Source of the DNA: Thermoplasmatota archaeon | GTDB taxonomy: Archaea; Thermoplasmatota; E2; DHVEG-1 | Direction: 5' to 3' | DNA length: 32,699 bases | NCBI GenBank assembly: GCA_030616985.1 | Contig: JAUWWG010000006.1 | Coordinates: 1 to 32,699, forward strand | In this document: positions 909 through 30,851 of the stretch, piece after piece | Numbering within the stretch: position 1 is the stretch's first letter | How the letters are laid out: every line of letters begins with the position of its first letter | The notes under the pieces: model-generated | Databases searched by the model: none | The model's input: the letters and a program-made list of their open reading frames with translations, nothing else | Told to the model about the DNA's origin: nothing | Translations under genes and position numbers: made by a program

Positions 909-1457
909 CTATCTCTTAATTTCTCTATAAATCGATCTTCCGTGTGAATCTATTGCTACGACTAGTGGTCCGAATTCTTTTACTTTAAATATCCAGACAG
1001 CCTCAGGCATACCTAGCTCATCAAGCCAGTAGACAGATGGTACTTCCTCTACTTTATCTGCTGCTAACGCTCCTGCTCCTCCAGTATATGCTGTGTATAT
1101 CCCGGTGTGTTTCTGCAGTGCTTTTTCAGTTCTTTCACCCATGCCGCCTTTGCCGATTATGATGTTTATCCCATATTTTTCTATGAATTCATCTTCAAAG
1201 ATTTCCATGCGGCTGCTTGTCGTAGGACCTGCTGAAACTACCTGCCATCCCTTATCTGTTTTTTTCATGAGAGGGCCACAGTGATAGAGAGCCATTTCTG
1301 ATGGGTCAAACGGTAGATTGTTTTTGTCTTTTTCAAGCATCATATGATGTGCCTCATCCCTAGCTGTGAAAATCTTACCAGTGATATATATAACATCTCC
1401 TACGTGTAATTTTTCTATCTCTCCAGAGTCTACCGGCAATTTAAAATGATATTCCAT
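909..1457 (-). CDS. fumB: Fumarate hydratase class I, beta (C-terminal) subunit
   Basis: 182 aa; MEYHFKLPVDSGEIEKLHVGDVIYITGKIFTARDEAHHMM...GPTTSSRMEIFEDEFIEKYGINIIIGKGGMG is typical of class I fumarase/tartrate dehydratase beta; adjacent to the alpha subunit. Confidence 0.92.
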   Translation of the reverse strand: MEYHFKLPVDSGEIEKLHVGDVIYITGKIFTARDEAHHMMLEKDKNNLPFDPSEMALYHCGPLMKKTDKGWQVVSAGPTTSSRMEIFEDEFIEKYGINIIIGKGGMGERTEKALQKHTGIYTAYTGGAGALAADKVEEVPSVYWLDELGMPEAVWIFKVKEFGPLVVAIDSHGRSIYREIKR

Positions 1458-1458
1458 T

Positions 1459-2319
1459 TTATTTCACCTCCCAACTTCCATCAAAGTGAATAACCATTTT
1501 TGCCCTTCGATTAGCCCAGCATTGCACAGCAATTCCAACAGGCAGGCTAGCCGGATGTCTATGCGCTTTCTCAATATGAACATCTAGAACAGTGGTTTTT
1601 CCCCCAAGACCCATAGGACCAATACCGCTGTCGTTTATTCGTTTAATGAGTTCTTCTTCTATTGCAGCGATGGTTTTATCCTTGTGCCGATCGCCAACCG
1701 GTCTGAGGAGAGATTTTTTACCTAGTTTCATTGCCAGATCTGCACCACCCCCTATGCCTACACCTACAATAGTTGGTGGACATGGATTACCACCGGCTTT
1801 TATCATTTCCGTGACGACAAAATCTTTTACACCTTCTATGCCAACGCCGGGTTTTAGCATTCCAAGTTTACTCATGTTTTCACTACCTCCACCCTTTGGG
1901 AGAGCCGTTATCCATACGTTGCTACCTTCGACAAAATCCCATGTTATATATGGAATATTATCTCCCGTGTTGTCTTTATGATTCTCACCTGTAAATGGGT
2001 CAACAGTGTTTGGACGTAGGGGAATATCCTTTGTAGCTTTTTTTACCGCGTCTTTGATTAAGCCCCCAAGTTTGTCAATATCTGGAAAGTTTACGCCCAC
2101 TTCTACAAAAAACGTTTGGATGCCCGTATCCTGGCACATGGGACGTCCGGACTTTTTTGCCAGATCTATATTTTTAAGTATGGCCTCGATCTGTGTCTTT
2201 GCCACTCCTTCTTCGATTTCATATGCTTTTTTTAGTGCAGTTATCACATCGTTTGGTAGTTCCGTTTCGGCCTTTTTCATAAGTTGAACTATGCCTTTCT
2301 TTATATCTTCGTAGTCCAT
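1459..2319 (-). CDS. fumA: Fumarate hydratase class I, alpha (N-terminal) subunit
   Basis: 286 aa; motifs RPMCQDTGIQTFFVEVG, LPKGGGSENMSKLGML, GIGGGADLAMKLGKKSLLRP. Confidence 0.93.
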   Translation of the reverse strand: MDYEDIKKGIVQLMKKAETELPNDVITALKKAYEIEEGVAKTQIEAILKNIDLAKKSGRPMCQDTGIQTFFVEVGVNFPDIDKLGGLIKDAVKKATKDIPLRPNTVDPFTGENHKDNTGDNIPYITWDFVEGSNVWITALPKGGGSENMSKLGMLKPGVGIEGVKDFVVTEMIKAGGNPCPPTIVGVGIGGGADLAMKLGKKSLLRPVGDRHKDKTIAAIEEELIKRINDSGIGPMGLGGKTTVLDVHIEKAHRHPASLPVGIAVQCWANRRAKMVIHFDGSWEVK

Positions 2320-2455: not shown

Positions 2456-4411
2456 TTATTTTGCTTTTCCGATTTCTTCTACTGCTTCAGGGTTAGCAAG
2501 CGTGGAAATATCACCCACATCTTTACCAAGTGCCTTTGAACGAATGACACGTCGCATGATTTTTCCACTTCGTGTCTTTGGCACATCATTGACAAACCAT
2601 ATCTCATCTGGACGGGCTATTTTGCCCACCTCATGTCCAACATGTTCTCTCAATTCTTTTCTTAGTTCTTCTGTTGGATTAATATCCTCTCTGAGTACTA
2701 CATACGAGGTAATTGACTCGCCCTTAAGCGAATGTGGTTTACCAATGCATGCTGCCTCAGCAACCATAGGGTGACTAACCAGTGCTGATTCTACCTCTGA
2801 GTTTCCAATCCTATGTCCCGATACATTAAGTACATCATCCGCACGTCCCTGAATCCAGAAGAAACCATCATTGTCTTTCCGTGTCACGTCACCTGCGAGA
2901 TATTCTCCTTCGAATTTACTCCAATATGTTACCTTGTAACGATCTGCATTCTTGTAGATGCCTCTGAGCATACCTGGCCATGGATGTGTCAGAACAAGAT
3001 TTCCTCCTGCGTTTTGAACAGATTCTCCTTGTTCATTGTATACATCGGCAGAAAGACCAGGTAATGGTCTTGTGGCAGAACCAGGTTTCAACGGTGTAAT
3101 TGGTAACGGCGATATAACAAAATGCCCTGTTTCAGTTTGCCACCAGGTGTCCATAATTTGACATTTCTCATTACCAATGTGTTTGTAATACCATATCCAT
3201 GCCTCAGGATTTATCGGTTCACCGACAGAACCTAACAATCGAAGAGTGCTAAGGTCATGTTTCTTCGGCCAGTCTTCTCCATACTTCATAAACAAACGGA
3301 CACTTGTAGGTGAAGTATACAACGTTGTTACATTGTATTTTTCTATGATCTCCCACCAGCGGTCAGGCTGTGGCCAGTTAGGTGCACCTTCATATAAAAC
3401 AGATGTTGCACCAAGAATCAACGGTGCATACACGATATAAGAATGACCGGTTATCCAACCAATATCAGCGGCGCACCACCAGATGTCCTCATCTTTAATA
3501 TCAAATACCCATTTGAGCGTATAAGCAGTACCAACAGCATAACCTCCATGTGCATGGATAATACCTTTTGGTTTGCCTGTAGTACCAGATGTATACAAGA
3601 AAAACAATGGATCATTCGCGTCAAGTTTCTCAGTTTCGCACTCTTTAGGAGCATCAAAAACAAGGTCATGCCACCAGACGTCTCTACCGGCAGTCCAAGG
3701 AACTCCATCACCAGTACGCTTGCATACTATGACATGCTCAACACTTGGTGCTTCTTCAAGAGCAACATCAGCTTGTTCTTTAAGATAGACCTTTTTACCA
3801 CGTCGCCAAAACCCATCACACGTGATAACAACCTTTACCTCACAATCATTAACTCTATCTCTGAAAGCAAGTGAACTAAAACCTGAAAATACAACAGAAT
3901 GAATCGCTCCGATCTTTGCACAGGCAAGCATAGCAATAGGCAATTCAAGAATCATTGGCATATAAATACCTACGCGATCACCTTTCTTCACACCAATTTT
4001 TTTCAATGAGTTAGCAAATTTATTAACCTCGATATAAAGATCATTATAAGTCAACTTTTGCACATCGCCGGGCTCACCTTCAAAAATAAAAGCAACCTTG
4101 TTCTTCCTCCAACTATTTGCATGTTTGTCAAGTGCATCATGTACAATATTATACTTAGCACCTACAAACCATTTAACCCATGGAGCATCCCATTCTACTA
4201 CCTCTTTATATGGTTCATACCATTCAACAAAATCTTTTGAAATCTCTTCCCAGAACCATTTCCAGTTTTCTGCTTTTTTATGTAATTCATCGAGGTTTTT
4301 TATATTATGTTCGTCCATCCACTGCTTCACATTTGTTTGTTTTACAAACTCTTCTTTTGGTTTAAAAACACGTTTTTCGTCTAGCAATACGGATATGTTT
4401 TCTTCAGCCAT
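2456..4411 (-). CDS. acs: AMP-forming acetyl-CoA synthetase
   Basis: 651 aa; [14 protein letters not shown]-binding motif, [42 protein letters not shown]-terminal [11 protein letters not shown]. Confidence 0.95.
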
Positions 4412-4439: not shown

Positions 4440-5132
4440 TTAGTAATCCCCAGGAAACGCTCCTGTTAATTTTGCATATTCCTCAAAGTTTTCAACCCAG
4501 TCAAATTCGTAATCAATGTCATCCTTGGGCGTTTTCTTTGCCCTCTCAGCAAGATGCTTTTTCTGCTTTTCTATCAATTTTTCAAGTGGAGCAAATCGTT
4601 TAGCTCTAAAAACTGGATAGAATGAAGATTGATCAACGCCATCCAGAGCTCTAATATGTTCTCTAAGGAATTTATTAACCGTCTCCTTTGAATCAGCAGC
4701 AACACTCATAATTATATCTTCGTCACCAAGAGAATACGAAATATAGATTGGGAAAAGATTGAAGGGATATTTATGGTCAACCAAATGATCATAGACATTC
4801 TTGTAATCTCGCGGATGGGCATAGACACGTATTATATATCTTTGGATATTTTCAGGTTTCTTTTTTGGAATTGGGAAAAATACTGGTTTCATAAGTGACA
4901 CTGTTTTCGTATGATGAACTTCATCACATTTGACAATTTCTTCTGTGATGAATTGCGCGATGTCATCTGTGTGTTCTACATCAAAAATTACACCTACATT
5001 CATCATTCCTTCTGACTGGGTAGCATATAATGGCGTAATTGGTTTTGATGGGTCGTTTCTAATTTCATTTTCGACATAATTCCATACTCTACTTAGGTCT
5101 GTTTTTGGATATAATCTTACTATCATTAACAT
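4440..5132 (-). CDS. Uncharacterised protein with two Lrp/AsnC-RAM (ACT-like) type domains and no HTH
   Basis: 230 aa; halves starting [15 protein letters not shown]... and [16 protein letters not shown]... look like a repeated alpha/beta ligand-binding fold, ending in SLMKPVFFP and [17 protein letters not shown] upstream; immediately upstream of acs on the same strand. Confidence 0.6.
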
Positions 5133-5299
5133 ATTCTTTTCCTCCCTATTTTATATCTTTTATATATGATGGGGATTTGCCTGAAATATATTTGGGGTAT
5201 AAGTAATTTTGTACAAATTCTTACAAATAGTTTAAGTATTAATTCTATAATTACTGATAACACCCTATAAGAAAGTAATAAACGGGGAGGTCTGTTCAT

Positions 5300-7249
5300 A
5301 TGGGAAAAGGTATAGTTCAAAAGATTTTAGAAAAGCACATTGTGGAAGGTAAGTATGAACCTGGTAAGGAGATCGCCATTAAAATCGATCAAACATTGAC
5401 TCAGGATGCAACTGGTACTATGGCATATCTTCAATTTGAAGCTATGGGAGTTCCACGTGTCAAGACAGAGTTGTCAGTTAGTTATGTTGATCACAATACT
5501 GTTCAGATTGGTTTTGAGAATGCAGATGACCATAAGTATCTTCAAAGTGTAGCAGCAAAATACGGGATTATTTATTCACGTGCTGGCAATGGGATTTGTC
5601 ATCAGGTACATTTAGAGCGTTTTGGTAGACCTGATAAGACATTGCTTGGAAGTGATTCTCACACACCAACTGGTGGCGGAGTTGGTATGATTGCTATTGG
5701 TGCTGGTGGTCTTGATGTGGCCGTGGCAATGGGCGGTGGTCCGTTTTATCTGACTTGTCCAAAAGTGATCAAGGTTAATTTATATGGAAAACTCAAACCG
5801 TGGGTTACTGCTAAGGACGTTGTTCTTAAGATGTTGGAGAAGTTTACTACTAAGGGTAATGTCGGTTGCGTGTTTGAATATGGTGGAGAAGGTGTAAAAA
5901 CTCTATCTGTACCTGAGAGAGCAACGATTACTAATATGGGTGCAGAGTGTGGTGTTACAACATCTATTTTCCCAAGTGATGAAATAACAAAAGCATTTCT
6001 CAAGGCTCAAGACCGGGAGAAAGATTGGGTTGAGATAAAAGCAGATCCTGATGCTGAATATGACAAAGTCGTTGATCTTGATCTCAGCGAGCTTATCCCA
6101 CTTGCAGCATACCCACATAGTCCTGGAAACATTAAGACAGTGAAAGAGCTGGAAGGAATGGAGGTAGATCAAGTATGTCTTGGAAGCTGCACAAACTCAT
6201 CATATAAGGATCTTATGACAGTTGCAAAAATCCTGAAAGGAAAGAAAGCACATCCTAACGTCAGCTTTGTCATTGCTCCAGGCTCAAAACAAGTACTTGA
6301 AAACATTGCTAGAGATGGAGGACTTGCTGATTTAATAGCTGCAGGCGCACGTATTGCAGAATCAGCATGTGGATTCTGTATTGGAAACAGTCAGTCACCA
6401 AAAACTGATGCAGTATCTTTGCGGACAAGCAACCGGAATTTCTTAGGTCGCTCGGGAACGAAAAGCGCACAAGCTTATCTTGTCAGCCCAGAAACTGCAG
6501 CAGCTGCGGTACTCACTGGTAAAATGACTGATCCACGTAATCTAGAAAAAATGGGGATAAAATATCCAGATGTTAAAATGCCAGAGAAATTCTACATTGA
6601 TGACAGCATGTTCATTTATCCGCCAGAGCACCCGAAAGATGTTGAAATCTATCGTGGACCTAATATTGGTGATCCGCCTAAAAGTGATCCAATATCCGAT
6701 ACAATCGCAGGAGAAGTTACAATCAAAGTGGAAGATTTAATCACAACTGATCACATCATCCCTGCAGGAAGCAAGATGAAATATCGGTCTAATGTACCTA
6801 AATATTCAGAGTTTTTATTTGAAATAGTTGATCCTAAATTTCATGATCGGGCAGAAAAAATCAGGGACAGTGGCAAACACAATATTATCGTTGCAGGTCT
6901 TAGTTACGGACAAGGTTCCTCAAGGGAGCATGCCGCACTATGTCCCATGTATATGGGTGTAAAGGCAGTTATTGCAAAATCATTTGAACGGATTCATACA
7001 GCAAATCTCATCAACTTCGGGATTGTCCCGTTGATTTTCAAAAACGAAAGGGATTATGAAAAAATATCACAAGGAGATGAACTAGAACTACCAAATATTA
7101 AAAATATCATCAACCAAGGCAAAGCATTAGTGGTAAAAAACAAAACTAATGGTGCTGAATTTGAGGTTGACTATAATCTTTCAGATAGGCAAAAGAAAAT
7201 AATACTTGCAGGTGGCACACTTGCATTTATGAAAAACCAAACCAGTTAA
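5300..7249 (+). CDS. acnA: Aconitate hydratase
   Basis: 649 aa; GSDSHTPTGGGVGMIAIGAGGLDVA, LGSCTNSSYKDL, SACGFCIGNSQSP, GLSYGQGSSREHAALCP; GGGAGGT upstream. Confidence 0.95.
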   Translation: MGKGIVQKILEKHIVEGKYEPGKEIAIKIDQTLTQDATGTMAYLQFEAMGVPRVKTELSVSYVDHNTVQIGFENADDHKYLQSVAAKYGIIYSRAGNGICHQVHLERFGRPDKTLLGSDSHTPTGGGVGMIAIGAGGLDVAVAMGGGPFYLTCPKVIKVNLYGKLKPWVTAKDVVLKMLEKFTTKGNVGCVFEYGGEGVKTLSVPERATITNMGAECGVTTSIFPSDEITKAFLKAQDREKDWVEIKADPDAEYDKVVDLDLSELIPLAAYPHSPGNIKTVKELEGMEVDQVCLGSCTNSSYKDLMTVAKILKGKKAHPNVSFVIAPGSKQVLENIARDGGLADLIAAGARIAESACGFCIGNSQSPKTDAVSLRTSNRNFLGRSGTKSAQAYLVSPETAAAAVLTGKMTDPRNLEKMGIKYPDVKMPEKFYIDDSMFIYPPEHPKDVEIYRGPNIGDPPKSDPISDTIAGEVTIKVEDLITTDHIIPAGSKMKYRSNVPKYSEFLFEIVDPKFHDRAEKIRDSGKHNIIVAGLSYGQGSSREHAALCPMYMGVKAVIAKSFERIHTANLINFGIVPLIFKNERDYEKISQGDELELPNIKNIINQGKALVVKNKTNGAEFEVDYNLSDRQKKIILAGGTLAFMKNQTS

Positions 7250-7270
7250 AACAATTTGGAGGTAAAAATT

Positions 7271-8545
7271 ATGGCACAAAGAGGAATAAGAGAATATGAT
7301 GGGAAGAAAATGCTTGCTAAGTACTGGACAGATTACATCAGCAAGGATTTCAAATTCCCCGGAAAAATTGTACTGGTAGACCCAAAAACTAAACTTGATG
7401 ATCTACCTAAAAAACATAAATGGCTTAAAACTGAGAAGTTAGTGGTAAAACCTGATCAACTTTTTGGAAAACGTGGTAAACATGGTTTGATCAAAGCAAA
7501 TGCTAGTTTTACAGAGGCAAAGAAATGGATTACAGAGCATATGAACAAAGAGACAAAAGTTGGAAAAGTAACAGGGATGTTGACTCATTTTATAATTGAA
7601 CCATTTGTCCCACATAAAGGAGAATTTTATGTTGCGATAAAAAGTAATCGTGAAGGCGACATGATTTATTTCTCCAACCATGGCGGCGTGGATATTGAAT
7701 CTGTGTGGAAAACTGTTTCAGAAATCCAAATTGATGTTGATCAAGATATAAATAAAGTCAATATTGAAAGTAAACTTCCAAAGGATACACCAAAAGAACA
7801 TAAGAAAATGTTTGCAGAATTTACCAAAGGGTTATACAAATTTTATAGAGAACTTAACTATGCATATCTTGAAATCAACCCATTTGTAGTATCTGGAAAA
7901 GAAATAATACCACTTGATCTGGTTGCCAGAATTGATGATACGGGTCATTTTGAAAGCAGTGATAAATGGGGAGATCTTACATTTCCAGCACCATTTGGAA
8001 GAAAACTTTCAAAAGAAGAAAAATACGTCAAGATGATGGATGAAAAAAGTGGAGCGTTGCTCAAGCTCACTGTTTTAAATCCAAAGGGCCGCGTTTGGAC
8101 TATGGTTGCTGGTGGAGGAGGAAGTGTAATCTATACTGATACCATCGTTGACTTAGGCTACAGAGATGAACTTGCAAATTACGGAGAATACAGTGGAAAT
8201 CCAACAACGGATCTCACTTACGAATATGCAAAAACAATTCTTGATTTAATGACCCGTGAGAAAGACCCAAAAGGACGACCAAAGTTCTTACTAGTTGGAG
8301 GAGGTATAGCAAACTTTACAGATGTAGCAAAAACATTTACCGGTATTACTATGGCACTTCGTGATTACAAAAAGAAACTGAAAGATACAAAAGTGAAAAT
8401 CTATGTAAGACGTGGTGGACCAAACTACAAGGAGGGGCTTAAAATCATGAAAGATCTTGGTGAAGAACTTGGAATTCCAATTGATGTATATGGTCCTGAG
8501 ACCCATATGACACGAATTGTTGATATGGCTTTAGGGGGAAAATAA
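7271..8545 (+). CDS. aclB: ATP-citrate lyase, ATP-grasp/beta subunit
   Basis: The track starts at TTG 7256, but ATG 7271 follows TTGGAGGT. MAQRGIREYDGKKMLAKYW...LVVKPDQLFGKRGKHGLI...IEPFVPHKGEFYVAI...LKLTVLNPKGRVWTMVAGGGGSVIYTDTIVDLG...ANYGEYSGNPT...FVRRGG-like VRRGGPNYKEGL..THMTRIVDMALGG matches the ACLY N-terminal region. Confidence 0.93.
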   Translation: MAQRGIREYDGKKMLAKYWTDYISKDFKFPGKIVLVDPKTKLDDLPKKHKWLKTEKLVVKPDQLFGKRGKHGLIKANASFTEAKKWITEHMNKETKVGKVTGMLTHFIIEPFVPHKGEFYVAIKSNREGDMIYFSNHGGVDIESVWKTVSEIQIDVDQDINKVNIESKLPKDTPKEHKKMFAEFTKGLYKFYRELNYAYLEINPFVVSGKEIIPLDLVARIDDTGHFESSDKWGDLTFPAPFGRKLSKEEKYVKMMDEKSGALLKLTVLNPKGRVWTMVAGGGGSVIYTDTIVDLGYRDELANYGEYSGNPTTDLTYEYAKTILDLMTREKDPKGRPKFLLVGGGIANFTDVAKTFTGITMALRDYKKKLKDTKVKIYVRRGGPNYKEGLKIMKDLGEELGIPIDVYGPETHMTRIVDMALGGK

Positions 8546-8559
8546 TGGAGGCGATTACC

Positions 8560-10434
8560 GTGACAAAAACCAAGAAATCTGGAAAAAGACCTGATTATAT
8601 TATAATGGATAAAAACACAAAAGCAATTATTTTCGGTTTTCAAACACGTGCAATTCAGCGCATGCTTGATTTTGATTATATTTGCAGACGCGAAGAACCC
8701 TCCGTTGTCGTAATAGTTAATCCGACTCGTGATGGAATGCATAAATGCTTCTGGGGAACCAAAGAAATACTCATACCAATGGTTCGAACCCTCAAAGAGG
8801 CGACAAAAATGCATCCAGAAGCAGACTTCATGGTAAACTTTGCAAGTTTCAGATCAGCCTATCAAACAAGCAAAGAAGCACTTGAAACCAAAACAATTCG
8901 CTCTGTTGCAATCATTGCAGAAGGATTACCTGAACAAAGAACAAAAGAACTTATAAAAATTGCAAAAGAAAAAAACAAATGGATTATTGGTCCTGCAACT
9001 GTTGGAGGCATTGCCGCAGGAGGATTTAGAATAGGAAACACAGCCGGACAACTTGATAATATTGTAGCTTCAAAGTTGCACCGCCAGGGTAGTGTTGCAT
9101 ATGTGTCAAAATCTGGTGGACTTAGCAATGAGCTCAATAATATCATTGCTATGACAACAGATGGAGTCTATGAGGGTGTAGCAATAGGCGGAGATAGATA
9201 CCCAGGGTCAACATTTATAGACCATATGATGCGATATGAGAAAAACCCAGATATCAAAATGACGGTACTACTTGGTGAAGTCGGTGGAACAGATGAATAC
9301 GAAGTAATCGATGCGATCAAAAAAGGACGGATAAAAAAACCAGTAGTTGCCTGGTGTATTGGAACATGTTCAAAAGTATTTCCAGCAGAAGTTCAATTTG
9401 GCCATGCTGGAGCAAGAGCAGGTGCAGAACGGGAAACAGCTGATGTAAAAAACAAAGCATTCAAGGATGTAGGTGTATATGTTCCAAAAAGCTTTGATGA
9501 TTTTGATAAACAAATAGAAAAAGCATATACAAAGCTAGTGAAAAGTGGGAAACATAAACCAATACCTGATGTTGAACCACCAATAATACCACTTGATTAT
9601 GAAGTTGCTCTAAAACAAGGAATGATCAGAAAACCTGCAAGTTTTATTTCAACTATTTCTGATGACCGTGGAGAAGAACTACGATACTGCGGTGTGACGA
9701 TCAGTAGAATCTTTGAAGAAAAATGGGGACTTGGTGGAGTAATAGGTCTATTGTGGTTTAAGAAAAATCTACCAGCATGGGCACGAGAGTTCATCGAACG
9801 TGTAGTATTACTTACTGCTGATCATGGACCAGCTGTTTCTGGTGCACACAACTCAATTATTGCATCACGAGCTGGAAAAGATTTGATCTCTTCACTAGTG
9901 AGTGGTCTATTAACAATTGGACCTCGTTTTGGTGGAGCAGTACAAGGATCAGCAAATCACTTCACAAAATACCTCTACGCTGGTGAAGAGCCAAGCTTCA
10001 TGGTCACAGACATGAAGAGTAAAAATGTAAACATCCAAGGTATAGGACACCGTATTAAATCAGTGACAAATCCTGATGTACGAGTAACAATCATGGTGGA
10101 CTTCGCCAAGAAGAACTTTCCAGTAACTGAAACACTTGATTATGCATTATCTGTTGAAGAACTAACGACATCAAAAAGAAACAACCTGATTCTAAACGTC
10201 GATGGTTGTATTGGCGTATTATGCTGTGATATGTTACGTGGTATAGGGTATTCAAGAGATGAAGTAAGAGAGTTTGTAGATCTTGGAATTCTCAATGCAT
10301 TCTTTGTTCTCGGAAGGAGTATCGGTTTCATGGGTCATATTATGGATCAGAAGCGTTTGAAATCCAGACTTTACAGACATCCGTGGGATGACATTGAATA
10401 TATGATGCCAGATAAACCTGAGAAGGTGAAGTAA
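8560..10434 (+). CDS. aclA: ATP-citrate lyase, alpha subunit (CoA-ligase plus citrate-synthase-like domains)
   Basis: [24 protein letters not shown] carries the predicted phosphohistidine; [107 protein letters not shown] 8560 preceded by GGAGGCGAT is favoured; the track start is ATG 8545. Confidence 0.95.
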
Positions 10435-12665
10435 TGAGTGGAAAAGGAAAGATAATTTATACAAAAGTTGATGAAGCGCCATCTTTAGCAACTTATTCTT
10501 TTCTACCCATTATAAAAAGTTTCACAGAAGTTGGAGATGTAACAGTTGAAACAAGAGATATTTCACTAGCAGGAAGAATTATTGCAAAATTTCCTGAAAA
10601 TCTTACAGAGGACCAAAGGATATCAGATGATTTAGCGGAACTTGGTGATCTGGTTAAAAAACCAGAAGCAAATGTCATCAAACTACCATGTATTAGTGCA
10701 TCAATACCTCAGTTGAAAGCAGCAATAAAAGAATTACAAGACCATGGCTATAATCTTCCAGATTATCCTGAGGATCCAAAAAATGATAAAGAAAAAGAAA
10801 TCAAAGCTAGATATGACAAGATTAAAGGAAGTGCTGTTAACCCTGTTTTAAGAGAAGGAAACTCAGATCGAAGAGTCCCCGGACATGTAAAAAACTATGC
10901 AAAACAAAACCCACATCCAATGGGTGAATGGACCACTGATTCGAAATCGCATGTTGCACATATGAAAAGTAATGATCTTTGTTCAAATGAGAAATCTACA
11001 ACAATTACAAAAGAAACAGCAGGAGATGCCAAAATTGAGTATATAGGCCAAGATGGAACTACTAAAGTTTTAAAGGAAAAACTTGCACTACTTGATGGTG
11101 AAATAATTGATGCAACAGTTATGAACAAACGTGCGTTACGTGCATTTCTTGAAGAACAAGTTGAAGATGCGGAAAAGAAAGATGTTTTGTTTTCTGTTCA
11201 TTTGAAAGCTACAATGATGAAGGTATCTGATCCTATTATTTTTGGTCATGTAGTTTCTGTTTTCTTCAAAGATGCATTTGAAAAACATGCATCTGTTTTT
11301 AAAGAACTAGGTGTCAGCCCTAACAATGGACTAGGTGATCTTTATGCGAAAATCAAAACACTTCCTGATGATAAAAGAAAAGAAATCGAATCTGACATCC
11401 AAGCATGTTATAAAAATAGACCTAAACTTGCGATGGTGAACTCTGATAAAGGAATAACAAATCTACATGTCCCAAGTGATGTAATAATTGATGCGTCAAT
11501 GCCTGCTGCAATTCGAAACTCTGGTCGAATGTGGGGTGCCGATGGCAAGCTTCATGATACAAAATTTGTGATACCAGACAGCAGCTATGCTGGAGTGTAT
11601 AGGGAGGTAATTGAGTTTTGTAAAAAAAATGGAGCATTTGACCCGACAACAATGGGAACTGTTCCCAATGTTGGTCTTATGGCACAAAAAGCAGAGGAAT
11701 ACGGATCTCATGACAAGACATTTCAAATCCCAGGTGATGGAAAAGTTCGTGTTGTTTCATCATCAGGAGAAATAATGCTTGAACACGATGTTGAAGAAGG
11801 TGATATCTGGCGTATGTGTCAGGTAAAAGATCTACCAATTCAAGACTGGGTAAAACTAGCAGTTAACAGAGCAAAAGCAACAGGTTCACCTGCTGTTTTC
11901 TGGCTTGATAAAAACCGAGCACATGATGCACAACTCATAGAAAAAATAAACCGATATCTTAAAGATCATGACACAAAAGACCTGGAAATCCATATAATGA
12001 CACCAGTAGAAGCCACACGATTCTCAGTAAAGCATATGAAAGAAGGTAAAGACACCATTTCAATAACTGGAAACGTACTACGTGATTATCTGACAGATCT
12101 GTTTCCAATTCTTGAAGTAGGAACAAGTGCTAAGATGCTATCAATAGTGCCTCTTATGAATGGTGGAGGATTATATGAAACAGGAGCGGGTGGATCAGCA
12201 CCTAAACATGTTCAACAGTTCCGACAAGAGGGTCATCTTAGATGGGATTCACTTGGAGAGTTTCTAGCTCTTGCAGTATCATTAGAACATCTAAGTAATG
12301 CAACCAATAATGAAAAAGCAAAAATCTTAGGGGAAACACTTGACCAAGCAACTGCTAAATTTTTGATAAACAACAAATCTCCATCTCGAAAGGTTAATGA
12401 GTTGGATAACAGGGGAAGTCAGTTCTATCTAACATTATACTGGGCACAAGCATTGGCGGAGCAAACAAAAGATGTAGATCTTCAAAGCCGTTTTGTAAAA
12501 CTTGCACAAGAACTTGCAGATAACGAAACTAAGATCCTTGATGAGTTGATCGTAGCACAAGGTAAGTCTGTTGATATTGGTGGTTACTACAAACCAAATG
12601 ATGAACTAGCGACTGAAGCAATGCGTCCAAGCGAAACTTTCAATGCAGCAGTAAAAGCATTGTAA
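10434..12665 (+). CDS. icd: Monomeric-type NADP-dependent isocitrate dehydrogenase
   Basis: 743 aa; [121 protein letters not shown] match the IDH-II monomeric family; overlaps the aclA stop as TAATG. Confidence 0.96.
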
Positions 12666-17329: not shown

Positions 17330-19315
17330 TCAAATTGTTTCTTCAATCATGGGAAGTATTTGTTTATCTTTAAATCCACGTTGCTGCATTGCACCAGATG
17401 GACATGCACCGACACATGCTCCACAGCCCTTGCACAACGCCTCGTTAACCTTCGCGTAGGATTTCCCATTGTCTTCTTTTACGATTTCTATGGCGCTGTA
17501 TGCACAGACAGAAACACAAACACTGCAACCAGAGCATATTTCCTCATCAACACAGGAAACAAGTGGCTCAGACTCAAGTTCTTTTTTTGACAGAATATTG
17601 GCTGCACGAGCTGCAGCACCGCTTGCCATCGATACAGTATCTTGAATATCTTTTGGGCCCTGACAACAGCCTGCAATAAAAATTCCACCTACAAACGTAT
17701 CCATCGGACGAAGTTTCGGATGAGCCTCTAAAAAGAAACCATCGCCGCTTTGAGAAATACGAAGAATACGGGCAAACTCATCAGCATCTGCACGTGGAAC
17801 AAGCGCAGGTACAAGGACCACCAAATCCGTAATTATCTCAAACAACTTGTTTGTTGTAGTATCAAAAATATCTATCTTTAGATGATCATCGACATTCCTG
17901 ATTTCAGATGGGCGACCGCGGAAAAAATTAGTCTTCAAGCCACGAATATTCCGATAAAATTCCTCATATCCTTTACCAAAACTACGGATGTCAGTATAAC
18001 ACACATTAATCTCAACATCGTCACCAAGCTTCTCCTTCAAAAGATATACTTGTTTAAGTGCACTCATGCAACCAATACGACAACACCATGTGCACTCGGT
18101 CTCATCACGGGAACCTACACATAAAACAAATGTGATACTACTGGGCTTTTCGTTGTTAGAGGGGCAAACTATCTCTCCACCAGTAGGACCAGAAGAGCTA
18201 ATCAAACGCTCCATCTCAAGTGTTGTAATAACGTCATCCGAACGAGCGTAACCACACTCATACAAATTGGAGGGATCCATAACATCGTAACCAGTGGCAA
18301 CCAATATGGCCCCAACATCAACCTCAATCTCCTCTTCCTTCTGTTTGAAGTCAATCGCATCAGCCTCACAAGCCTCAACACATAACGGACCAGCCCCACA
18401 TTTACCGCGAGTAATCATCAAACAATGATCAGAATCGACAGTACATTTCAATGGAATCGCCTGGGGAAACGGCATATAAATCGCACTCCGTTTTCCCATG
18501 CCCATATCAAATTCACTAACAACACGACCTTTCAAACGGCAGGCATCTACACAGTCTCCACAGCCAGTACATTTCTCCAAGTCGACATACCGTGGCTTCT
18601 TCTTAATTTTCACTTTGTAGTTTCCAATACTCCCTTCAATACCAATGACCTCAGAATATGTAAGCAACTCTATATTTGGATGATTTGCAATCTCCATCAT
18701 TTTGGGGGTAAGAATACAACCAGAACAATCCAGTGTTGGAAACGTCTTATCAAGCTGAGCCATCCGACCACCGATACTAGGCGTCTTTTCAACAAGATAG
18801 ACTTTATGTCCTTCCTCGGCTAGGTCCAGAGACGCCTGAATACCTGCGATACCGCCACCAATTACAACAGCTGTAGGTGTAACGCTGACCTTTGATGGTT
18901 CAAGCGGCTCTAACAAACGTGCCTTAGCCACAGCACCTCGAATTAAAACCTTTGCCTTTTCTGTAGCACGCGCCTTGTCCTCATGAACCCAAGAACACTG
19001 TTCACGGATATTTGCTATCTCTAAATTAAAGCCATTAACGCCGCCGGCTTCAACAACACCACGGAACGTATGCTCATGCATACGAGGAGAACAACAGGCT
19101 ATTACTATTCCGTCCAACTTGTGTTTTTTAATAGAATCCTTAATGAGATTCGCCCCAACATCAGAACACATATATTTGTAATCCTTGCTAACAACAACAC
19201 CATCAAGCCCAGCAGCATACTTTGTAAGCTGTTCGACATCTACCGTGGAAGCGATATTTATACCGCAATGACAAACAAACACGCCGATTTTATTACTCAT
19301 GCTATTAGTCTCCAA
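17330..19315 (-). CDS. hdrA: Heterodisulfide reductase subunit A (FAD, multiple Fe-S)
   Basis: GVFVCHCGINI, GGGIAGIQASLDLAEEGHKVYLVEKTPSIGGRMAQLDKTFPTLDCSGCILTPKMME, several CxxCxxCxxxC clusters. ATG 19300 (MSNKIGVF) is an alternative start. Confidence 0.95.
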   Translation of the reverse strand: METNSMSNKIGVFVCHCGINIASTVDVEQLTKYAAGLDGVVVSKDYKYMCSDVGANLIKDSIKKHKLDGIVIACCSPRMHEHTFRGVVEAGGVNGFNLEIANIREQCSWVHEDKARATEKAKVLIRGAVAKARLLEPLEPSKVSVTPTAVVIGGGIAGIQASLDLAEEGHKVYLVEKTPSIGGRMAQLDKTFPTLDCSGCILTPKMMEIANHPNIELLTYSEVIGIEGSIGNYKVKIKKKPRYVDLEKCTGCGDCVDACRLKGRVVSEFDMGMGKRSAIYMPFPQAIPLKCTVDSDHCLMITRGKCGAGPLCVEACEADAIDFKQKEEEIEVDVGAILVATGYDVMDPSNLYECGYARSDDVITTLEMERLISSSGPTGGEIVCPSNNEKPSSITFVLCVGSRDETECTWCCRIGCMSALKQVYLLKEKLGDDVEINVCYTDIRSFGKGYEEFYRNIRGLKTNFFRGRPSEIRNVDDHLKIDIFDTTTNKLFEIITDLVVLVPALVPRADADEFARILRISQSGDGFFLEAHPKLRPMDTFVGGIFIAGCCQGPKDIQDTVSMASGAAARAANILSKKELESEPLVSCVDEEICSGCSVCVSVCAYSAIEIVKEDNGKSYAKVNEALCKGCGACVGACPSGAMQQRGFKDKQILPMIEETI

Positions 19316-20174
19316 TCTTTAATTTATCAACAGGACTGAGGTTCAAATCCAAACCAAGTTTCTCTTTCTTAACGCCAAACGCTAGTCCAAGCAATTGAGT
19401 AAGATAAACTACCGGAACCTCTAGCTTTGACGCAACTGTTTCACCAGCCTTAACCTGCTTTGAATCAAACATCCGATGACACCACGGACAAACATCAACA
19501 AAAACGTCAAAACCCTGCTCCTGAACTCTCTGAAGTTTCTGCCCTGTCTTAGTCAAGGCAGATTCGGGAAGATTTGCTAGTATAGGTGCACCACAACAAT
19601 CAAGTTTCTCAGCATAATCAAGTGGTTCAGCACCCAGAATCTTAAGCACTGTTTCCATTTTCTGTGGATTCTCAGAATCCACTGGACGTCCAATTTCACT
19701 AGGTCTAATAAGATGGCATCCATAATGCGTTGCGATCTTTAAACCATCAAGTGGTTTTCTCACATGTTTTTCTATCTGATCAACACCAATATGGTCATGC
19801 AAAAGATCAACCGTATTAACAATATCAACAGACCCCTTGTATTGTAAATCCTCAGAAACGAGCATGCCGTTAACTCGATCCCTCATCTCTACATTATTCT
19901 CCATGACATGTTTGCATTCACTCAGGGCTAGATGGCACATTGGACATGGGACAAACAAGTCAATATCTTGCTTCTCACCAATTGCAAGATTACGTGCAGA
20001 AAGATACAGAGTCATGAGCTGATTTACACTTTTCATCGGCTCTCCACAACATGAAAAACCCTCAAGATCAACAAGTTCTATATCCAAAAGCGGAAACGTC
20101 TCCCTTATAGATAACTCATAGGCATACTGTTCTGTTGGCATCACACAACCGGGATAAAGTGCATATTTTTTCAT
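19305..20174 (-). CDS. hdrB: Heterodisulfide reductase subunit B
   Basis: 289 aa; two CCG motifs (FSCCGEPMKSVNQ, LDCCGAPILANLP) with PCPMCH and CPWCH. Confidence 0.93.
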   Translation of the reverse strand: MKKYALYPGCVMPTEQYAYELSIRETFPLLDIELVDLEGFSCCGEPMKSVNQLMTLYLSARNLAIGEKQDIDLFVPCPMCHLALSECKHVMENNVEMRDRVNGMLVSEDLQYKGSVDIVNTVDLLHDHIGVDQIEKHVRKPLDGLKIATHYGCHLIRPSEIGRPVDSENPQKMETVLKILGAEPLDYAEKLDCCGAPILANLPESALTKTGQKLQRVQEQGFDVFVDVCPWCHRMFDSKQVKAGETVASKLEVPVVYLTQLLGLAFGVKKEKLGLDLNLSPVDKLKIGD

Positions 20175-20185
20175 AAGACCCCCTC

Positions 20186-20716
20186 CTATACTTTCTCAAC
20201 AGCTAACTTCGACAACACCATCTGGAACTTCGCAGCGTCAACAGGTTTAGAAATCGCAGGTAAACCAAGATCCTCTCGCTTGTTTGTTTTATTATCGCGA
20301 GTTATAACGCTTTGTGTCTCTTGGATCAGTCCAATAGAAAGAATAGACTGTAACATACCTGTATATTTACCCGGAATCTGCTTGCCACTTGCGACAGCCA
20401 TGTTCTTCAAAGCAAACAAAATATCAACAGGTGCAACTTTTTTCTGCGGGCATCGCTCCCTGCATTTAAAGCAGCTCATACAAGTCCAGATAACATCAGA
20501 ATTGACCAACTCATCAATCAGTCCACGTTTGAGCAATGCAACAACCTTGTGTGGCTCCAGTTCCAAAAGTTTATGGGCTTCACAACCGGAAGTGCACTTA
20601 GCACATTGAAAACAATAATCTGAAACCTCATCTTGAAGTCGAGATAGTCGGTCGTTAATTTCCTCCCTCAGTTCAGCCTGAGATTCCCCCATAGAAGTCA
20701 AATCTACTATACTCAT
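20186..20716 (-). CDS. hdrC: Heterodisulfide reductase subunit C
   Basis: 176 aa; CFQCAKCTSGCEA and CMSCFKCRERCPQ 4Fe-4S motifs; immediately upstream of hdrB. Confidence 0.92.
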   Translation of the reverse strand: MSIVDLTSMGESQAELREEINDRLSRLQDEVSDYCFQCAKCTSGCEAHKLLELEPHKVVALLKRGLIDELVNSDVIWTCMSCFKCRERCPQKKVAPVDILFALKNMAVASGKQIPGKYTGMLQSILSIGLIQETQSVITRDNKTNKREDLGLPAISKPVDAAKFQMVLSKLAVEKV

Positions 20717-21059: not shown

Positions 21060-22094
21060 ATGATCGGAATCGTTTATCATGAAGATTACAACAAATACGA
21101 TCTTGGTGTAGACCATCCCTTAGTTGGAAATAAACCTGGCAAAACCATGGAATTTTTTGAAGAAAAAGGCATAATGAAAGATGTTGAATTATTTACACCA
21201 AATAAAGCAGCAGAAAAAGATCTTTTGCGAGCACATAGTGAAAACTATGTAAGCAGAATAAAAGAACTGAGTCGTACTGGCGGTATGCTTGCTATGGATA
21301 CACCTGCAAAAGTTGGCATCTACAACCATGCAAGTCTTGCAACAGGTGGTTCAATACTTGCAGGTGAAAAGTTATTTGAGGGTTTTAATTGCATGGTTAA
21401 TCCACTTGCCGGTTTTCATCATGCTTGCATAAGCGCTTCATCAGGTTTCTGCTTCTTTAATGACATCGCCGTTGCCATTGAATACCTGCGTGAGAAACAC
21501 AAACTAAAACGTTTTTTAATAGTTGACTTAGATGTTCATCACGGCAATGGTACACAAGAAATTTATTATGATGATCCGACAGTTCTTAACATCTCGTTTC
21601 ACCAAGATGGGAGAACATTATACCCTGGAACTGGAAGTCTAGAAAAAATCGGACGAGATAAAGGAGAAGGATTCACAGTTAACCTGCCTTTGCCCCCCGG
21701 AACTGGAAGCGCAAGTTATCTAAAAGCATTTGATGAAATCATCCCGCCAATTACCAAACAATTCAAACCAGAGATCATTATCTACCAATCCGGTGTGGAT
21801 ACACATCACTCTGATCCGTTGGCAGATCTAAATTTAACATATCAGACTTACTACCACCTAGCTAAAAAGATGAGAGAATTATCTGCTGATACTTGTGACA
21901 AACTACTTGTTCTTTTTGGTGGCGGATACAACAGTTCAGCAAGTGTCACATCATATTACAATATCATGTGCGGCCTTCTCGATAAGGACAAATATTTAAA
22001 AGAGATTGATAACACGTCTCATCAAAAATTTGAAAGGGTAAAAAATCTAGTTTTTGATCTTAAAAAAGTACTTAAACCACATTGGGAAATATAA
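21060..22094 (+). CDS. Histone deacetylase/AcuC-family deacetylase
   Basis: 344 aa; RAHSENYV, GFHHACISASSGFCFFNDIAVAIEYL, FLIVDLDVHHGNGTQEIYYDDP, YQSGVDTHHSDPLADLNLT. Confidence 0.9.
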   Translation: MIGIVYHEDYNKYDLGVDHPLVGNKPGKTMEFFEEKGIMKDVELFTPNKAAEKDLLRAHSENYVSRIKELSRTGGMLAMDTPAKVGIYNHASLATGGSILAGEKLFEGFNCMVNPLAGFHHACISASSGFCFFNDIAVAIEYLREKHKLKRFLIVDLDVHHGNGTQEIYYDDPTVLNISFHQDGRTLYPGTGSLEKIGRDKGEGFTVNLPLPPGTGSASYLKAFDEIIPPITKQFKPEIIIYQSGVDTHHSDPLADLNLTYQTYYHLAKKMRELSADTCDKLLVLFGGGYNSSASVTSYYNIMCGLLDKDKYLKEIDNTSHQKFERVKNLVFDLKKVLKPHWEI

Positions 22095-27684: not shown

Positions 27685-28062
27685 TTAATCAACTTCTTTT
27701 GTCAGAACTGTTTTAGTCGCTACAATATCTATGCCAGTATTTGCAGCATTTTTGATTATTGTTTGTCCGGATTTCACTGGAGCCTTCACTGCTGTTCCCC
27801 CTACTTCTTTTAAAACAGAGAACAATTTTTCTTCTGGAACCGGCTTTGAACTTTTAACGCTGACAAGCGGCCATTCACCGTCATTTACTAGTATCGAAGT
27901 TGTCAGCATCCGTCTGGGATCAAGAGCCTCGCTTCTTGCATATTCTATCCCCCTTTTACATTTGTTTCCCCCAACAATTTCAAACTGTGCCCCATCTGTT
28001 TTAACCAGTATTTTACAACCAATAGGGCAAACGATACAAGTTATATTCCTCTCATCGGTCAA
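27685..28062 (-). CDS. DUF1667-family protein
   Basis: NITCIVCPIGCKILVKTDG...GGNKCKRGIEYARSEALDPRRMLTTSILV. Confidence 0.88.
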   Translation of the reverse strand: MTDERNITCIVCPIGCKILVKTDGAQFEIVGGNKCKRGIEYARSEALDPRRMLTTSILVNDGEWPLVSVKSSKPVPEEKLFSVLKEVGGTAVKAPVKSGQTIIKNAANTGIDIVATKTVLTKEVD

Positions 28063-29329
28063 CGAGTATTACCTCCAAGTTCTGTGTAGATGTCAGTACC
28101 TCATGTGGAATATCAACATCAACTCCAATCATATTAGCAGGATTTACCCACGCCAATCTTTTCTTCAAAATTTCTTTATCACCTGCAACCATATGTAACA
28201 CGGATGATTCCCCAGGTTTTTCAACTCTTAATGTTAAATGTACTTTTCCCGGTTCACTAATAATTTGAGGGACAACATATCTAATCCCTTTACCAGGTAC
28301 AATTTTAGCAATAATTTTCTTGTCTTTCTTTTGAATAGCCGAATTTTTTGCTGCACTTCTTCCTGCATTCTCTGCATCAGCTGAGAGAACATCGACGGTA
28401 TCGTAGACCTGGAGACAATTTCCACAAGCAAAAACTCCTGATAGTGTTGTCTCCAAATATTGGTTTACTGTAGGTCCACCTGTTATATTATCAATCTCAA
28501 TTCCAATATTGTTGGCTAATTCATTTTCAGGAATCAGTCCCAACGAAAGAAGGAGAGTATCACATTCAATTTTTTTCTCAGTTCCAGAGATAATGTTCAT
28601 TTCCCCATCAACTTGAGCAATAGTAACTTGCTCTAATCTCTCTTTTCCATCAATGCAAGTGACTGTATGATTCAGAAAAAGAGGTATATCATAATCCTCA
28701 AGACATTGAACTACATTTCTGGGAAGACCACTTGCATAAGGCAAGATTTCCACAACTCCCAAAACATTAGCTCCCTCGAATTTCAAACGCCGTGCCATAA
28801 TAAGTCCAACATCTCCAGACCCAAGAATAATCACATTCTTTCCAGGCATGATGTTATAGAGATTTATGAACGCCTGTGCCACGCCAGCAGTATAGATGCC
28901 GCTTGGTCGGTCACCAGATATCATTACATTCCATCTTGTCTTTTCCCTGCACCCCATTGCAAGAACAATAGCACTAGCTTTGATTTTGTGTAATCCCTTT
29001 TTGTTTACTGCGGTTATCTCTCGTTTTTTATCAAACTGCAAAACCATTGTCTCTTTCATTATGTCTATGCCTTGTTTCTCTGCCATCTCAATATACATCT
29101 CTGCGTATTCGGGTCCAGTCATAGAGGTCCCTGTTTCCTCAACACCAAAACCGTCATGTATACACTGGGGAAGAATGCCACCTAGCCAACTATTTCTATC
29201 TATGACTACAACACTCTTGGCACCATGTTCGTGTGCTGATACAGCTGCAGCCAGACCTGCAGGTCCACCACCTATAACTGCCACATCCACCGTATAATCA
29301 ATCACTTTGATTACCTCGGGTTTTACCAT
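28052..29329 (-). CDS. FAD-dependent pyridine nucleotide-disulfide oxidoreductase family protein
   Basis: VAVIGGGPAGLAAAVSAHEHGAKSVVVIDRNSWLGG; NVIILGSGDVGLIMARRLKFEGANVLGVVE; GVFACGNCLQVYDTVD. Confidence 0.88.
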   Translation of the reverse strand: MVKPEVIKVIDYTVDVAVIGGGPAGLAAAVSAHEHGAKSVVVIDRNSWLGGILPQCIHDGFGVEETGTSMTGPEYAEMYIEMAEKQGIDIMKETMVLQFDKKREITAVNKKGLHKIKASAIVLAMGCREKTRWNVMISGDRPSGIYTAGVAQAFINLYNIMPGKNVIILGSGDVGLIMARRLKFEGANVLGVVEILPYASGLPRNVVQCLEDYDIPLFLNHTVTCIDGKERLEQVTIAQVDGEMNIISGTEKKIECDTLLLSLGLIPENELANNIGIEIDNITGGPTVNQYLETTLSGVFACGNCLQVYDTVDVLSADAENAGRSAAKNSAIQKKDKKIIAKIVPGKGIRYVVPQIISEPGKVHLTLRVEKPGESSVLHMVAGDKEILKKRLAWVNPANMIGVDVDIPHEVLTSTQNLEVILVDR

Positions 29330-30767
29330 AAAAGAGATTGGAATTCGGTGATTTTAGCCTCATATCAGCAACATCCATGTTAAAATGTTCTTCCATAATT
29401 CTAACTATATGTTGGGTGCAGAAACCACCTTGACATCTTCCCATCCCTGCTCTGCAACGATATTTAACAGAAGAAAGAACCCGTGCTTCCAATGGATTTG
29501 AAAGTGCCTCGATTACTTCTGCCTCAGTAACATGCTCACATCTACAAACAATTCTACCCCATTTCTCATCCTTTTTAATCAGATTTGATTGTTCTTCTGC
29601 TGACATCTCGGAGAATCGTTTTCTTCTATGTCTTCTTGATTTGAAACTATTTTTTTTATTCAGTTCTATTAAATGAGAAATCATTTTTATTATCTCTTTG
29701 GCAATGGCGGGAGCTGCAGTAAGTCCAGGTGATTCTATTCCTAACAAGTTAATAAAACCAGGCATATTCTTGCTTTCTTCTATTCTATAATCAGCCCAAC
29801 CTCCAGATTCAGGAGAGGCGAGTTTGCAACGAATTCCTGAATAAGCATTTATTACTGCTTTATCTGGTAAAGAAGGGATGATCCCCCTCGCCTCCAAAAA
29901 TAGAGTATTCATTGTTTCATTAGTAGTCCTTTTGTCATAAGGATCACCTATAAATTCTGCACTTGGACCAAGGAGAATGTTTCCCTCAATCGTTGGAGTA
30001 ATGTGAACACCCAACACACCTGACCCCTTTACCGGCACAGGATATATCATAGAGTTTATTAACGAACTATAATTTTTATCTAAAACCAAATACTCTCCTC
30101 TGCATGGATACACCTGGAAATCTGGTTCCTCCATCATAGAGACCACCTCCCTACAATTCAAACCCGCAGCGTTTACTACCACTCCTGCTTGGAAGTCACC
30201 TTTGTTGGTTTTTATTAAAAAAAGATTTTTTTGTTTTTTCAAATCAGTAATTTTTGTTTCAAGAAAGAACACGACATTATTTTCTGCGGCATTTTCGGCA
30301 AGAGCTATCGTAAACTGGTAAGGTAGTGTAATACCAGCAGTGGGAATCCATAACGCTTTAAAACATGAGACATTCGGCTCTTTCTTTTTAACCTCTGATC
30401 TGTTTTTTATCTCCAAACCAGGGACGTTATTATTCATACCAACTTTTTTAAGGTGTTCAAGATCACGTACCTCTTCCTCATTTTTTGCTATGATATATTT
30501 TCCAACCCATTGTAATGGAAAATCTAACTCATTGGCAAGAGATTGAAACATTTTGTTACCTTCAACACAAAAACGAGCTTTAAGAGAAGAGGTGGGGGAA
30601 TTTATACCACTATGAACAACGCCGCTGTTTGCCTTACTGGCACCAGACGCAACATCGCTTCCCATTTCAAAAACTGCTACATCGAGTTTAAACATTGACA
30701 ACTCCCGCGCAATAGCAGAACCAATAACACCCCCTCCAATTATAGCAACCTGGAAGTTTTTCATCAA
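29298..30767 (-). CDS. GlpA/L2HGDH-like FAD oxidoreductase with C-terminal BFD-like [2Fe-2S] domain
   Basis: VAIIGGGVIGSAIARELSMFKLDVAVFEMGSDVASGASKANSGVVHSGI; C-terminal RIVCRCEHVTEAEVIEAL...YRCRAGMGRCQGGFC. Confidence 0.88.
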   Translation of the reverse strand: MMKNFQVAIIGGGVIGSAIARELSMFKLDVAVFEMGSDVASGASKANSGVVHSGINSPTSSLKARFCVEGNKMFQSLANELDFPLQWVGKYIIAKNEEEVRDLEHLKKVGMNNNVPGLEIKNRSEVKKKEPNVSCFKALWIPTAGITLPYQFTIALAENAAENNVVFFLETKITDLKKQKNLFLIKTNKGDFQAGVVVNAAGLNCREVVSMMEEPDFQVYPCRGEYLVLDKNYSSLINSMIYPVPVKGSGVLGVHITPTIEGNILLGPSAEFIGDPYDKRTTNETMNTLFLEARGIIPSLPDKAVINAYSGIRCKLASPESGGWADYRIEESKNMPGFINLLGIESPGLTAAPAIAKEIIKMISHLIELNKKNSFKSRRHRRKRFSEMSAEEQSNLIKKDEKWGRIVCRCEHVTEAEVIEALSNPLEARVLSSVKYRCRAGMGRCQGGFCTQHIVRIMEEHFNMDVADMRLKSPNSNLFYGKTRGNQSD

Positions 30768-30851
30768 AGAGGGAATAAAAATCCGTCGTATAAATATTAG
30801 GTACTGAGCTTCTACGCTAGATTTTTAACTAATTAACTTATAGACAGATAC

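Follow-up and report, generated by a model that had tools for sequence, protein, structure and literature searches.

A conserved ATP-citrate lyase, aconitase and isocitrate dehydrogenase operon in Thermoplasmatota and its possible role in place of citrate synthase

ATP-citrate lyase (ACL) is routinely taken as a marker of autotrophy through the reductive tricarboxylic acid (rTCA) cycle in surveys of metagenome-assembled genomes (MAGs). Contig JAUWWG010000006.1 of a Thermoplasmatota archaeon (assembly GCA_030616985.1), analysed over its positions 1 to 32,699 and hereafter called the window, encodes both ACL subunits between aconitase and isocitrate dehydrogenase (IDH), which raises the question of what the enzyme does there. 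In our best reading, this citrate arm takes over the role of an absent citrate synthase. More fully, we give about an even chance to a self-contained, reversible ACL-aconitase-IDH arm that replaces citrate synthase, runs most likely in the oxidative direction and, in this organism, stands outside a closed rTCA cycle. The module itself is well supported; enzyme activity and the net direction of flux are what we infer from it.

The operon, its enzymes and its host

Four genes on the forward strand, acn (5300..7249), aclB (7271..8545), aclA (8545..10434) and icd (10434..12665), form a single tight operon. The initial annotation, made from the sequence alone, had named these four genes and described tight junctions between them; family profiles scoring above their cut-offs confirmed the identities, and the TAATG overlaps are real (aclB/aclA at 8543-8547 and aclA/icd at 10432-10436). 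Two details were amended. The mechanical aclB open reading frame (ORF; 7256-8545, from TTG 7256) was corrected to start at ATG 7271, downstream of the acn stop at 7249 and behind GGAGG at 7258-7262 (close relatives are 424-425 aa long), and the type of IDH, which had been left unspecified, is the monomeric, bacterial one.

The acn gene, preceded by a Shine-Dalgarno sequence (GGGAGG, 5285-5290), encodes a 649-aa aconitate hydratase of the PRK07229/TIGR01342 type (PRK07229, 965 bits; cut-off 612). AclB, the small ACL subunit, aligned with the ACL ATP-grasp (PF24948, 292 bits) and citrate-binding (PF16114, 286 bits) profiles, both above cut-offs, and retains the motifs ANFTDV and VRRGGPNY. AclA, the large subunit, has CoA-binding, CoA-ligase and citrate-synthase-like domains (PF02629, PF00549 and PF00285, all above cut-offs). 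It matches 6hxi_B over its full length, with 59% identity to the Methanothrix protein (6hxi) and 58% to human ACLY, and all five phospho-histidine and citryl-CoA lyase residues tested are present (H287, H427, H502, D553 and R591, which correspond to human H760, H900, H975, D1026 and R1065). Together, aclB and aclA encode a heteromeric ACL with predicted ATP-dependent citrate-cleaving activity. The Methanothrix (Methanosaeta concilii) enzyme, of known structure (PDB 6hxi/6znw), has the same two subunits, with matching lengths and domains and the same five residues, although it belongs to another phylum. Chlorobium ACL (6hxj) shares the reaction and the two-subunit layout but is far more distant in sequence (416 bits versus 837 for Methanothrix), and the remaining enzymes of the Chlorobium rTCA cycle were not found in the window's genome. 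A Chlorobium-type origin was ruled out, the match being much weaker than to Methanothrix or human.

The product of icd is a 743-aa monomeric NADP-dependent IDH (TIGR00178, 1327 bits, cut-off 950; full-length to TIGR00178/PF03971 with 1324 bits in a second scan). It matches PDB 1itw over its full length (1195 bits) and is 63-65% identical to its best bacterial homologues. In a small quick tree, Thermoplasmatota monomeric IDHs formed one group against four bacterial sequences. Unlike the bacterial monomeric NADP-IDHs (1itw and others), the window's copy is archaeal and lies inside an ACL operon.

The host is archaeal, as first suspected, and belongs to Thermoplasmatota, very probably to E2/DHVEG-1 'Thermoprofundales' (MBG-D), an assignment drawn from close relatives with names, M9B1D among them. 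As contig C26, the window belongs to a 2.05-Mb MAG (G000; 142 contigs, 89.5% complete, 2% contamination), and close AclA relatives from named genomes come from Thermoplasmatota in all but one case, a 'Heimdallarchaeota' record. This record (L014; CP070665, labelled Heimdallarchaeota bin76) carries an aclA 91% identical to that of the window, falls within the Thermoplasmatota clade and has a truncated aclB; it represents a recent transfer, a misassembly or a mislabelled bin. Equally close is M9B1D, a published Thermoprofundales MAG (MUGC00000000, PMC6461988), whose aclA is also 91% identical (L006, MUGC01000019.1) and lies beside an IDH of the eukaryote type. PMC6461988 states that aclAB is absent from all its Thermoprofundales MAGs, a statement contradicted by its own MAG.

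A chimeric join, which the initial annotation had named as fatal to its reading, or contamination was also considered. The MAG does carry 2% contamination, and DNA identity between the window and the sister species G001 jumps from ~65% to 95% near ~10350. However, identity to L003 and L015 stays level across the aclA/icd junction, which marks G001 as the odd one: its upstream part, including ACL, looks to have been replaced, or its contig is chimeric. Many independent MAGs repeat the arrangement fumBA-acs-asnC (reverse strand) and acn-aclB-aclA-icd (forward strand), which excludes a chimeric cassette, and the gene order of L013 matches that of the window from fumBA through hdrABC. Given these collinear MAGs and the even identity across the junction, we ruled out this explanation, whose probability we consider very small.

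The cassette across Thermoplasmatota

ACL was detected in 65 of 390 Thermoplasmatota genomes, including 36 of the 45 genomes listed for the window's own family, and the cassette also occurs in distant families of the phylum. Archaeal ACL, which the initial annotation thought would be unusual, is already known: Methanothrix structures have been solved, and earlier studies describe rTCA1 gene sets, read as an rTCA cycle, in Thermoplasmatota (PMC9802188) and in a single Thermoprofundales MAG, OTU 25 (PMC11287216). Full-length citrate synthase was found neither in the window's genome nor, of 31 relatives, in any of the 17 that carry ACL. Only two of the 31 encode one (G028 and G030), and both are without ACL. 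A Re-citrate synthase candidate in the window's genome was rejected, as the single match in a PF00682 search is the B subunit of pyruvate carboxylase.

Three unrelated enzyme types occupy the IDH slot: the monomeric NADP-IDH, a eukaryote-type dimeric NADP-IDH (PRK08299, 639-653 bits) and a protein resembling NAD(P)-IDH and homoisocitrate dehydrogenase that falls under every curated cut-off. The operon and one of the three types occur together in most loci with long enough flanks; in some loci the IDH ORF was seen only in part, cut off by the end of the contig. With 36 typed rows placed on the AclA tree (15, 11 and 10 per type), at least nine IDH-type switches are required, versus 12-21 with shuffled labels; the types cluster by descent and yet have been exchanged repeatedly. 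The AclA tree is a quick one in which human, Methanothrix and Sulfurovum sit on long branches, for which reason we claim no placement of these three. In one lineage (f19), the order is acn-citE-citF-idh, with CitEF in the ACL slot (L125, L145 and L149). Three unrelated IDHs in one slot, and CitEF in the ACL slot of one lineage, are apparently undescribed, and a search limited to open-access PMC papers turned up no account of an operon with interchangeable IDHs. Genomes G006, G007 and G008 have two ACL copies each, both copies in G006 lying in complete acn-aclB-aclA-icd cassettes. Another Thermoplasmatota locus (L163, from 2245; G036:C54) contains a single 1044-aa ORF that is an AclB-AclA fusion resembling the fused ACLY of animals.

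The window's genome contains further citrate-handling genes. On contig C101 (L070; 613-4815, reverse strand), a CitF-type citrate lyase alpha subunit (508 bits, cut-off 501) adjoins a citryl-CoA lyase (CCL) of citrate-synthase fold (6hxp-like; 294 bits, cut-off 212) where CitE would be expected. An HD-domain protein precedes the pair, an aconitase/LeuCD-like fusion follows it, and no CitD was seen nearby. By sequence, the pair is a putative hybrid of CoA-transferase and CCL acting as a citrate (or citramalate) lyase, and many relatives have one. In three relatives (L080 8410-11828, G003:C32; L089, G018:C102; L023, G004:C346), CitF is exchanged for a SucC-like protein and a 715-aa SucD-CCL fusion, perhaps an independent fusion that gave an ACL-like architecture with a CCL-type domain. 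CoA activation by transferase or ligase seems interchangeable in the CCL cassette.

The rest of the cycle and the direction of the arm

The initial annotation had proposed that the module might belong to an rTCA cycle, and had pointed to lack of the remaining enzymes as evidence to the contrary. Absence calls here concern one incomplete MAG, that of the window, and one sister MAG (G001, same genus), and single absences are soft given 89.5% completeness in 142 contigs. Within that scope, most of the remaining cycle went undetected in the window's genome. Its PF01855 2-oxoacid oxidoreductases are NifJ-type, PorA/PorB-like and IorA only, with no 2-oxoglutarate:ferredoxin oxidoreductase (OGOR) found; succinyl-CoA synthetase was not found, PF08442 matching AclB alone; malate dehydrogenase (MDH) searches with PF00056 (LDH-type) and PF02615 (Ldh_2-type) were negative, Mqo and malic enzyme not being searched. 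No dedicated fumarate reductase was detected, TfrA-like proteins included (other types were not searched); the sole SdhA/FrdA-like ORF was rejected, as it scores best as L-aspartate oxidase. For carbon monoxide dehydrogenase/acetyl-CoA synthase, no CdhC was found in this genome or in any of 19 genomes searched, and the Wood-Ljungdahl pathway as a complement was rejected on that ground. OGOR, SucC, a TfrA-like protein and MDH were likewise not found in G001. Of the enzymes that the initial annotation had suggested seeking, pyruvate synthase did turn up (NifJ-type and PorA/PorB-like), whereas OGOR, fumarate reductase and citrate synthase did not. The precursor-supplying enzymes present are NifJ, PorAB, IorA, PycB and Acs.

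Some relatives differ. SucC and a TfrA-like fumarate reductase occur in G002 and G005-G008, and a Kor-type oxidoreductase in G002 and G006. In these last two, KorAB, a large HdrA, the TfrA-like protein and SucCD share one region (L085 11793-18001 in G006; L076 in G002), in which an FeS protein, TfrA-like protein, KorA, KorB, gamma-like subunit and large HdrA adjoin SucCD; the row is a possible 2-oxoglutarate/fumarate electron-transfer complex. The single-contig G002 (90.5% searched) also encodes NifJ, PorA, PycB, PpsA, Gdh, fumarase and a malic enzyme broken by an N run; citrate synthase, MDH, Mqo and LeuA were not found in the searched 90.5%. A nearly closed reductive set is thus present in G002 and G006 and was not found in the window's genus. 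Because most of the reductive branch is present there, the rTCA reading may hold for G002, G006 and G008. For the window's own organism, a full autotrophic rTCA cycle is highly improbable: ACL is its classical marker and the published claims concern the same phylum or order, with ACL shared, but those studies inferred an autotrophic cycle, and OGOR, SucCD, fumarate reductase and MDH were not found here. The caution in the initial annotation that the module may serve a non-autotrophic role was apt.

Run oxidatively, the arm would draw oxaloacetate from pyruvate carboxylase and acetyl-CoA from pyruvate:ferredoxin oxidoreductase or Acs. ACL would convert oxaloacetate, acetyl-CoA, ADP and Pi to citrate, CoA and ATP, and citrate would pass through isocitrate to 2-oxoglutarate, CO2 and NADPH, feeding glutamate synthesis. 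ACL is taken to be reversible (Guynn and Veech 1973, as cited in PMC12137691), so that citrate formation with ATP gain is possible, and the ACL of Desulfobacter postgatei is described as forming citrate in this way (Moller 1987, as cited in PMC12137691). As the reductive branch was not found, no other way of obtaining 2-oxoglutarate was detected, amino-acid uptake aside, and with no other usual citrate-forming enzyme detected either, the conversion of acetyl-CoA and oxaloacetate to 2-oxoglutarate is the most economical account. A similar case is that of ANME-1 and ANME-2c, for which passages of PMC9012536 report ACL, aconitase and IDH with reductive-branch genes missing and propose that ACL works there so as to form ATP, in a partial oxidative pathway that makes 2-oxoglutarate. 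The window's genome likewise has all three enzymes and neither a Si- nor a Re-citrate synthase was found in it. It differs in that Thermoplasmatota have one conserved operon with interchangeable IDHs, of which those passages describe none.

Several points weigh against this oxidative reading. Lone absences are of limited weight in a fragmented, incomplete MAG, and the CitF and CCL pair weakens the case for ACL as the only citrate-forming route. ACL is usually regarded as citrate-cleaving, and in the f19 arrangement the ACL slot is held by CitEF, mostly a catabolic citrate lyase. Protein is the presumed substrate of these archaea, so they may have no need to synthesize 2-oxoglutarate.

The main competitor, a less probable but real possibility, turns the arm round for amino-acid fermentation, from glutamate through 2-oxoglutarate and citrate to acetyl-CoA or acetate and oxaloacetate. 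Glutamate would be deaminated, IDH would carboxylate the product with NADPH, and aconitase would be followed by cleavage through ACL or CitF/CCL; glutamate dehydrogenase and IDH would be redox-balanced if the former uses NADP, much as in human cytosolic reductive carboxylation by IDH1, ACO1 and ACLY. The CitEF-bearing cassettes and the second citrate-cleaving pair fit this, as do the adjoining regulator of an amino-acid-sensing family, the IDH1/2-like enzyme in the slot of many relatives, the Gdh of G002 and the reported use of protein or peptides by the group, which has aminotransferases (PMC6461988). On the other hand, with ACL the route costs ATP, and stable-isotope probing showed no 13C-protein uptake by Thermoprofundales (PMC9123169). 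A broader version, which we advance only tentatively, is that the exchangeable Thermoplasmatota cassette (acn, ACL or CitEF, and one of three IDHs) ferments glutamate by reductive carboxylation and citrate splitting, and that, where a relative also encodes OGOR-HdrA, a TfrA-like fumarate reductase and SucCD, it could complete a bidirectional TCA ring that needs no citrate synthase. To our knowledge, such a glutamate fermentation has no prior description. It is improbable that ACL merely supplies acetyl-CoA for isoprenoid lipids and acetylation from imported or internal citrate, as in the eukaryotic cytosol: the sequence is ACLY-like and the neighbouring Acs also serves acetyl-CoA supply, but no citrate synthase was found as a citrate source, pyruvate:ferredoxin oxidoreductase already yields acetyl-CoA, and an IDH is co-encoded.

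Surroundings of the operon and its significance

Divergent from acn lies a gene for an Lrp/AsnC-family regulator with a RAM ligand-binding domain (4440..5132, reverse strand), which probably controls the operon; the AT-rich intergenic region between them (5133..5299) is presumably a shared control region. Further genes on the reverse strand encode AMP-forming acetyl-CoA synthetase (acs, 2456..4411) and the N-terminal (1459..2319) and C-terminal (909..1457) subunits of a two-subunit class I fumarase. The regulator and acs stand beside the cassette in relatives too. Downstream of the cassette are an hdrABC set (17330-20716; HdrA2-like, shorter than the model), kept in L005 and L013, and a histone-deacetylase-family protein (21060-22094, 288 bits) without a match in the searched part of G002. 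A pair of FAD oxidoreductases (GlpA/L-2-hydroxyglutarate-oxidase-like, with a BFD domain) and a LarA-family protein follow at 28052-32111, the latter matching the malate racemase LarAH6 best, below cut-off. This trio adjoins the ACL cassette and fumarase in several relatives. It might stand in for the missing MDH. Scanning the window for Rfam families and tRNAs gave nothing of use.

MBG-D/Thermoprofundales are uncultured archaea that abound in sediments, and at stake is a choice between CO2 fixation and protein fermentation as their way of life. Because ACL is carried by most of the window's family, appears to replace citrate synthase there and occurs in genomes in which most other enzymes of the cycle went undetected, the marker alone can mislead. 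The repeated swaps of three IDHs, and of ACL and CitEF, within one operon suggest that the three-step arm itself is the selected unit.

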